A stretch of DNA of 64,000 nucleotides from Celeribacter marinus. Lineage in GTDB: Bacteria > Pseudomonadota > Alphaproteobacteria > Rhodobacterales > Rhodobacteraceae. The position numbers and the translations under genes were made by a program. Location: contig NZ_CP012023.1 in the NCBI RefSeq assembly GCF_001308265.1, positions 1,130,932 to 1,194,931 of the forward strand, given 5' to 3'. The notes beneath the pieces were generated by a model, which saw only the letters and a program-made list of their open reading frames with translations, made no database searches and had not been told where the DNA came from. Below are positions 6,042 through 7,977 of this stretch, one piece after another (the first letter of the stretch is position 1; every line of letters starts with the position of its first letter).

Positions 6042-6069
6042 AAAAAGGCCGCCCCCTAAGGAGCGGCCC
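6042..6069 (-). terminator. Rho-independent terminator of rpsD
   Basis: Read on the minus strand, GGCCGC (6068-6063) pairs with GCGGCC (6052-6047), with further GC pairing inward, and is followed by TTTTT at 6046-6042. It sits 25 nt after the rpsD stop. Confidence 0.85.
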
Positions 6070-6715: not shown

Positions 6716-6848
6716 GATCTGGATCCTTTCAACGGATATGAAAGGTGCTGTCCTTTCCCGCGGGAGTATTCCCTTGGGCGACAGGCGTCCCCTTGCGGGG
6801 GCCACCAACACCAAAATAATAAACGGCGCGCATTTCTGCACACCGGAT
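6716..6848 (-). promoter_or_regulatory. Structured 5' leader of rpsD (candidate S4 autoregulatory element)
   Basis: From the predicted transcription start to the GTG, the minus strand holds three perfect or nested hairpins. First is CCCC-GCAA-GGGG (6800-6789), with a GNRA-type loop. Second is a nested stem: CTGTC (6784-6780) with GACAG (6752-6748), and inside it CCC/GGG and GGG/CCC pairs between 6778 and 6757. Third is CCTTTC (6745-6740) pairing with GAAAGG (6730-6725); this arm is the Shine-Dalgarno sequence of rpsD. S4 autoregulates translation in other bacteria; that this leader does so is inference. Confidence 0.6.
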
Positions 6849-6854
6849 GGCGGG

Positions 6855-6882
6855 CTTATACAAGGCACGCAAACAGAGTCAA
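6855..6882 (-). promoter_or_regulatory. Sigma-70-type promoter of rpsD
   Basis: On the minus strand TTGACT (6882-6877) is followed after 16 nt by TATAAG (6860-6855), close to the vegetative consensus. It would start a ~130-nt leader ahead of the rpsD GTG. Confidence 0.6.
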
Positions 6883-6918: not shown

Positions 6919-7977
6919 CTACGCGGCAGCGTGCAGTAAAATCGCGGCCTCAGCCGATGACAATGTGCGCCGCGCGGCAGGCCCGTATGCCTCACTGTGA
7001 CTGGCCAGATCGGGAAATACCTCTATCAAGCGGTGGCGCTGTGCGGGTGCGATATCGTCCAGATCGGTGAACGCAGGATGAAAGCTTTCCGTCTCGATCC
7101 CGTTGGCAAACACCACCTGATGACGTTCGAACATAAGGTGGATATAGTTGAGTTCCTTGAGTGTGCGATCCACGATGATAGACGTATCATTGACGAGGTC
7201 TATCGCAGTCACCAAAACCTCGTCCGCGCCGAACAACTCACGGGCAGGCGCACCCCCAATCAAAAAGCGGTGTTGCGGCGATACAATGAGGTCGCGCTCC
7301 GGATACCCCATGCCGAACGCTTTCGCGCGCACACGCACGGGCCGCAGCTCTGGCATTGCGTACAGGCGTGCACCAGTAATCCGGCGCCCGCCGATCCATG
7401 CCAATTGCTGCGCCCCATCATCTTTGGTTTGCACCCAATCGCCTTCGCGCAACTCTTCTACAGCACGCGCGCCGTCTGGCGTTTCTATTTGAGTGCCGGG
7501 CGTAAAACAGATAACGCCACCCGTTTTCACTTCGCACGCATCTGTGGCCACCGCGACATGGGACGACATCACCCATAGATCCGTATCCGCCGGCGGCATA
7601 GCGCCCAAGCACATGACAAGCGGCACACCCAAAGTCGGGGTATCGATGACGGTCATTTCATATTTGCGTAGCCCATCCGTGACATCAAAGCCACCATCGA
7701 ACAACCTGTCCTTATGCTCCGCGGTAGGACCAAAATCCTGGCCTGCCACATATCCGATGAGGCGGCGCACTTTGCCTGCCGCACGATGATGAAGTTCGTC
7801 TTGCCCAATCGCATGATCCAGCAAAAGCACGTTGCGCGGTCCATCCACGCACACTGCTTCACCCGACCAACGCCATGTTGCGCCGATCGTTAATGCCGAA
7901 AGTGGCGCAGAACCAAGGCCATCGACCTCTATCTGCGACCATGCGATGACAAACGTGCGAAGATTGCCCGTTTCCAT
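6919..7977 (-). CDS. Hint (hedgehog/intein) domain protein
   Basis: A 352-residue protein. Residues ~1-150 form an unrecognised N-terminal region. A Hint_2 module follows, beginning ICFTPGTQIETPDGARAVEEL, with GDWVQTKDDGAQQLAWIGGR, the block SPQHRFLIGG and FERHQVVFANGIETESFHP. The Cys that opens intein/hedgehog modules is present (FTPGT preceded by C), so self-cleavage is chemically possible. Such proteins are abundant in Rhodobacterales, often at the end of secreted or repeat-bearing proteins; their role is not established. Here the N-terminal part has no secretion signal that I can see. It is monocistronic, facing the same way as rpsD. Confidence 0.85.
   Translation of the reverse strand: METGNLRTFVIAWSQIEVDGLGSAPLSALTIGATWRWSGEAVCVDGPRNVLLLDHAIGQDELHHRAAGKVRRLIGYVAGQDFGPTAEHKDRLFDGGFDVTDGLRKYEMTVIDTPTLGVPLVMCLGAMPPADTDLWVMSSHVAVATDACEVKTGGVICFTPGTQIETPDGARAVEELREGDWVQTKDDGAQQLAWIGGRRITGARLYAMPELRPVRVRAKAFGMGYPERDLIVSPQHRFLIGGAPARELFGADEVLVTAIDLVNDTSIIVDRTLKELNYIHLMFERHQVVFANGIETESFHPAFTDLDDIAPAQRHRLIEVFPDLASHSEAYGPAARRTLSSAEAAILLHAAA

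Follow-up and report, generated by a model that had tools for sequence, protein, structure and literature searches.

A conserved three-way-junction RNA preceding rpsD in Rhodobacterales, a putative autogenous leader for ribosomal protein S4

The rpsD gene of Rhodobacterales, which encodes the 30S ribosomal protein S4, is preceded by a conserved RNA, here called the class A leader, that forms a three-way junction of the helices P1, P2 and P3 followed by a hairpin, P4, which holds the Shine-Dalgarno sequence. This RNA has the traits of a ribosomal-protein leader (r-leader), i.e. it is a conserved and structured element of the 5' untranslated region, it is restricted to rpsD, and its P4 lies over the Shine-Dalgarno sequence. 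Judged from its sequence and setting, it is probably an autogenous leader that binds S4. The leader was found in a stretch of 64,000 nt (the window), which sits in a 3.10-Mb single-contig Rhodobacterales genome.

According to a 2024 review (PMC10931766), S4 represses its own synthesis in both E. coli and Bacillus; the alpha-operon leader of E. coli is a pseudoknot located before rpsM, the Bacillus leader stands before a separate rpsD gene, and the alphaproteobacterial rpsD is located apart from the alpha operon. The Bacillus leader contains a conserved GUAA imitating 16S rRNA, as stated by Eckert & Weinberg 2020 (PMC7247131), who describe candidate S4 leaders from Bacteroidia, Flavobacteria, Clostridia and Fusobacteriales but give none for S4 in Alphaproteobacteria. 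An earlier note on this DNA had proposed that alphaproteobacteria may have evolved a third, separate S4-binding leader. A separate alphaproteobacterial rpsD leader is well supported by its conservation, its covariation, its exclusive association with rpsD and its monocistronic setting, but "third" fails as a count, since PMC7247131 already holds further S4 leader candidates from other lineages.

The identity of the rpsD product in the window, assigned by two protein-family models (Table 1), is further supported by PDB S4 chains. The earlier note had read a GTG start, a TTGACT-N16-TATAAG promoter and a leader of about 130 nt from the sequence, and all three are borne out; the transcript would be expected, from the promoter spacing alone, to start near 6848. 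The gene does not lie inside an rpsM-rpsK-rpsD-rpoA-rplQ operon; its neighbours are the terminator and, downstream of it on the minus strand, a hisC-like gene followed by a prephenate dehydrogenase gene. Hence the window rpsD is monocistronic with its own terminator, as the earlier note had held for alphaproteobacteria, and terminator-like sites were found 3' of rpsD in 65 of 77 Rhodobacterales loci, versus 3 of 76 shuffled sequences. The gene on the 5' side of rpsD (6919-7977, minus strand) has a product of 352 aa that matches no NCBIfam model and, by eye, seems to include a Hint-like stretch, CFTPGTQIETPDG.

Table 1. Features of the rpsD locus and its leader, in coordinates of the window
Feature	Position	Strand	Basis or remark
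rpsD, 30S ribosomal protein S4, 206 aa	6095..6715	-	GTG start codon 6715-6713, stop 6095; matches above cut-off: NCBIfam TIGR01017, PRK05327
-35 box TTGACT	6877..6882	-	direct reading
-10 box TATAAG, 16-nt spacer	6855..6860	-	direct reading
Extra 5' hairpin, then a T-rich stretch, in the gap separating promoter and conserved RNA	6824..6845	-	terminator-like score
P1 5' strand GGUGUUG	6806..6812	-	pairs with 6744-6750; compensatory changes, strand-swap test
P2 hairpin GGC-CCCC-GCAA-GGGG-AC-GCC, GNRA loop, outer GG/CC	6784..6803	-	covariation
Invariant junction UGUC, then a purine (R) at 6779	6780..6783	-	
Variable hairpin P3, with CCC/GGG as outer and GGGA/UCCC as inner stem	6757..6778	-	four outer pairs covary
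Junction AAAGGA (consensus ARAGGA; AGGA invariant)	6751..6756	-	
P1 3' strand CAGCACC	6744..6750	-	compensatory changes, strand-swap test
P4 5' strand CCUUUC; two C's able to pair in P1 or P4	6740..6745	-	
P4 3' strand GAAAGG, overlaps Shine-Dalgarno	6725..6730	-	
Shine-Dalgarno AAAGGA, 8 nt 5' of GTG	6724..6729	-	direct reading
Intrinsic terminator just 3' of rpsD, 10-pair stem and T tract	6046..6069	-	

The structure was derived from a MAFFT alignment made without structural fitting (A1) and from RNAalifold, followed by comparison with relatives; the leader region of the window also folds better than its dinucleotide shuffles (z = -3.5, reached by 0 of 200). In the Rhodobacterales consensus, P1 reads GGUGUUG/CAACGCC, with GGUGUUG/CAGCACC in the window and GGUGUUU/AAGCACC in two loci (L056 and L073), and it is joined by GU to P2, whose consensus is GG(C)-CCCC-GNRA-GGGG-NN-(G)CC. 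The junction UGUC-R follows P2, and A-R-AGGA follows P3. The consensus P4, CCUUC/GAAGG (CCUUUC/GAAAGG in the window), lies over the Shine-Dalgarno sequence and abuts P1 with no base between them, and on direct reading the bases where P1 meets P4 are able to pair as part of either one. An alternative CCU/AGG pairing, suggested by RNAalifold in place of the outer pairs of P2, was rejected because these outer pairs covary in a wider set of sequences while the AGG letters never change.

Of the 80 named rpsD loci obtained by a protein search, 76 share with the window the same core, in the form of TTGGTGTTGGTGGCCCCCGCAAGGGGATGCCTGTC - variable hairpin - ARAGGACAACGCCCTTC - variable loop - GAAGGAGATCA - start, whose surrounding letters vary; the remaining four are L066 and three Rhizobium loci. 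Every one of the 77 rpsD loci compared from Rhodobacterales thus has the conserved leader. A covariance model (R1) built from 68 of the core-bearing loci gave exactly one match per genome in 121 of 121 Rhodobacterales genomes from 59 genera, its E-values being rough. In seven loci (L020, L022, L047, L062, L068, L069 and L307) from several genera a palindromic repeat of the GTGGGAACCGGTTTTCGG type is inserted in the loop of P4, and the P4 strands are still complementary wherever the sequence extends to the start codon. One locus of the Rhodobacterales order, L311 (genome G347), carries a Rhizobium-like P1, TGGCGTCC/GGCCGCCT, and is possibly an intermediate.

The helices leave clear traces in the alignments. 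In A1, 97.8% of the cells are paired, compared with 87.3% after shuffling, a level that none of 500 shuffles reaches and no slid version comes close to; double-sided changes occur in 12 of the 21 pairs, the inner stem of P2 covaries, and P4 shows double-sided changes in three of its five pairs with 99.7% of its cells paired. In A2, a MAFFT alignment of 50 diverse sequences, 91.2% of the cells pair versus 70.2% in shuffles, and 14 of 15 pairs have double-sided changes. We also used a tree-based null, in which every column was simulated along the tree of the data with its count of changes kept (our own script, not R-scape; five doubtful loci and L086 excluded by hand). By this test the four outer pairs of P3 are significant in Rhodobacterales (E<=0.01), as are, in the non-Rhodobacterales sequences, all four P3 pairs tested and both of the variable pairs at the outer end of P2 (E<0.05); no non-pair is significant, and single P1 pairs fail at E<0.05. 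Within Rhodobacterales most P1 pairs are invariant or changed on one side only. However, when the P1 strands were swapped among sequences, in a test that allows for the freedom of the parser in placing the 5' strand, the 3' strand of a sequence's own leader paired better than foreign strands (p = 1.9e-10). The same comparison for P4 in non-Rhodobacterales gave a small gap, 5.44 versus 4.91 pairs. Taken together, these data support pair-by-pair covariation in P2 and P3, and support P1 through its compensatory changes and the strand-swap test.

These results bear on the fold drawn in the earlier note, which proposed to align rpsD upstream regions of relatives and look for covariation in three stems. 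Two of the stems covary, namely the CCCC-GCAA-GGGG hairpin (P2) and the CCTTTC/GAAAGG pairing over the ribosome site (P4), the latter being CCTTC/GAAGG in most relatives. The nested stem survives in part: its enclosed CCC/GGG helix (GCCC..GGG) covaries strongly and is P3, whereas the enclosing CTGTC/GACAG shows no covariation. P1, which shares bases with GACAG, had been missed, together with the invariant UGUC and AGGA. Since the 3' strands of CTGTC/GACAG and P1 overlap, the two helices are mutually exclusive, and CTGTC/GACAG could be at most an alternative conformer within Rhodobacterales. That it is nevertheless functional, either as the true fold or as a conformer alternating with P1, appears very unlikely to us. 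The minimum-energy fold of the window does contain it in place of P1, a point against the S4 model proposed below, and UGUC..GGACA is present in most Rhodobacterales; on the other hand, it has not a single double-sided change in the 50 sequences of A2, one of its pairs fails to form in 47 of them, it is broken in L056 and L073, and it is impossible in the Rhizobium-like type, which has GAGG instead of GACA. The stem was therefore replaced by P1 in our structure.

The class A architecture extends beyond Rhodobacterales. The three Rhizobium loci (L079-L081) have it with different helix sequences, and so do most rpsD leaders in the order to which genome G058 belongs, an order that probably includes the relatives of Rhizobium because leader and S4 sequences are shared. 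In this order rpsD was found in 61 of 61 genomes, 52 of the 61 leaders pass the score of our anatomy parser, and about 46 are evident on visual inspection; the variants of P1 include ACGCACCC/GGGCGCGU, ACAUGUCC/GGGCGUGU, GCAUGCCU/GGGCAUGC, GCCUGUUC/GGACGGGC and others. Two further alphaproteobacterial families (L105, L106 and L127; L089) share the architecture as well. The parser let through two chance passes in the class-wide survey (L121 and L177), which were removed by hand. All 139 distinct sequences that were parsed carry the same UGUC and AGGA; these letters served as anchors of the parser, yet neither of the alignments made with MAFFT, A1 and A2, shows any change in them. At the fifth pair of P1, an A-C mismatch alternates with G-C in non-Rhodobacterales (A-C in 26 of 56), as might be expected if an A-C wobble is accepted or even favoured at this position.

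Conservation of this stretch might also arise at the level of DNA, from a promoter-proximal binding site, or from an N-terminal extension of S4, since the element lies just 3' of the promoter and the rpsD frame of the window is open through the leader. We regard both as extremely improbable: compensatory base-pair changes and loops of variable length speak against conservation at the DNA level, and an in-frame stop in the leader of 34 of 77 relatives speaks against a coding extension, which was rejected.

Another account would make the leader a constitutive 5' structure that stabilizes the mRNA or tunes basal rpsD translation with no ligand at all. The RNA does come at, or close to, the start of the transcript. 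A TTGAC box was found upstream of it in 77 of 77 Rhodobacterales rpsD loci, its distance to P1 being 37-40 nt in 47 of them and 57-74 nt in the other 30, and from this spacing the transcript probably starts at the conserved RNA or one hairpin before it. A hairpin-sized insert between promoter and conserved RNA occurs in 30 of the 77 loci, with a T run at its end in 18, and resembles a stabilizing cap; the inserted hairpin itself could be a stabilizing 5' structure or an early attenuator. A passive hairpin, however, has no need for unpaired UGUC and AGGA kept invariant over two orders whose helix sequences differ, and a ligand-free role of the whole leader therefore seems unlikely.

S4 is suggested as the ligand by where the RNA occurs. 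A model without any coding sequence (R2) has matches in 9 of 241 class-wide genomes, from four families, and in 33 of 199 phylum-wide genomes, where all the matches listed are alphaproteobacterial; the filters used with many genomes were stricter, and some members were lost, e.g. G131, which R1 detects. In 39 of 39 matched loci checked, R2 matches included, S4 is encoded directly downstream, mostly with a terminator after its gene, which makes S4 the likeliest ligand; moreover, with a terminator-like site after rpsD in most of the Rhodobacterales loci, there is no obvious product other than S4 to keep in balance. The leader may instead control rpsD while sensing another protein or a small molecule, as invariant, unpaired junction letters could serve for many kinds of ligand and mimicry of 16S rRNA by the window leader was not found: the leader and the 16S rRNA of its own genome have one 8-mer in common, against 2.5 in shuffles, i.e. 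no resemblance beyond chance, so that any S4 site in it does not visibly imitate rRNA. Such a ligand is improbable, given that the class A RNA occurs only at rpsD, once per genome and in a monocistronic setting, and that r-protein leaders usually bind the product of their own transcript, a principle applied in PMC7247131.

For the preferred reading, binding of S4, the sequence data lead us to infer which ligand is bound, in which direction control runs and that it acts on translation. Counting against this reading are, besides the minimum-energy fold of the window, the small gap for P4 in non-Rhodobacterales, the P1 pairs that are invariant or changed on one side within Rhodobacterales or fall short in the tree-based test, and the lack of resemblance to 16S rRNA. 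Free S4, when in excess over unassembled 16S rRNA, would bind the three-way junction and lock P1 with P4 stacked on top, and the ribosome would thereby be kept off the Shine-Dalgarno sequence and rpsD translation would halt; when S4 is drawn into ribosomes, the weak P1/P4 boundary would open and translation could restart. Control would be translational because no terminator-like site was found between the conserved RNA and rpsD, i.e. 3' of P1 in the window leader.

In its separate rpsD gene the class A leader is like that of Bacillus subtilis and other Firmicutes, whose S4 represses its own translation (reported in PMC10931766), but it is without the conserved GUAA and has instead a three-way junction with a GNRA hairpin and UGUC/AGGA. 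With the E. coli alpha-operon leader it would share S4 as the presumed ligand and a presumed translational control; unlike that pseudoknot, which serves rpsM-rpsK-rpsD-rpoA-rplQ, class A stands before rpsD alone and needs no pseudoknot. Like the candidates of Eckert & Weinberg, it is a bioinformatic, lineage-restricted leader assigned to S4; those candidates, compared by their description in the paper, belong to other lineages and to operons with further genes. A cmscan of the window against Rfam 15 at gathering scores gave no match to an rpsD leader, the alpha-operon model included, its sole match being the ffh sRNA family (RF01793, 55775-55826, plus strand, 58.7 bits), and in 19 relatives scanned at E up to 1 neither the class A leader nor a second one, class B, was matched. 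The class A leader is thus outside every S4 leader family testable here, although on the reading given above it would act in the manner of an S4 r-leader.

Class B is an rpsD leader of the form UUCCCGRGAANGYGG ... CUAYCGGGACA that occurs in many other alphaproteobacterial families. The model for it (R3) has matches in 52 of the 241 class-wide genomes, a set that includes none of the nine with an R2 match, and wherever the locus of a match was read, the leader stood immediately 5' of rpsD; examples are L124 69-164 (minus strand), L171 323-396 (plus strand), L206 294-372 (plus strand) and about 45 more loci. Nine class B loci scanned against Rfam gave no match. Like class A, class B stands before rpsD in a single copy close to the promoter, and a three-branched fold is possible; unlike class A, it has a conserved GAANG and CUA and a P1 of UCCCGR/YCGGGA, in which three of six pairs show double-sided changes. 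No description of either class was found in the main text of the searchable open-licence papers. It is about an even call whether alphaproteobacteria, with rpsD gone from the alpha operon, control S4 through these two leaders (class A, and class B with UCCCGR..YCGGGACA), one taking the place of the other between lineages, with neither visibly copying the S4 site of 16S rRNA, a resemblance compared for class A only, and with S4 having acquired a new RNA partner on at least two occasions in one class of bacteria.

The reason for the alphaproteobacterial rpsD arrangement is called an open question in the 2024 review (PMC10931766), and to how S4 is controlled in these bacteria no answer was found in the searchable open-licence literature. 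The class A leader offers a defined RNA with mutable junction letters, present in every sampled Rhodobacterales genome and in a large second order. Both leader classes together amount to a natural experiment, in which one highly conserved RNA-binding protein would face different RNA targets.
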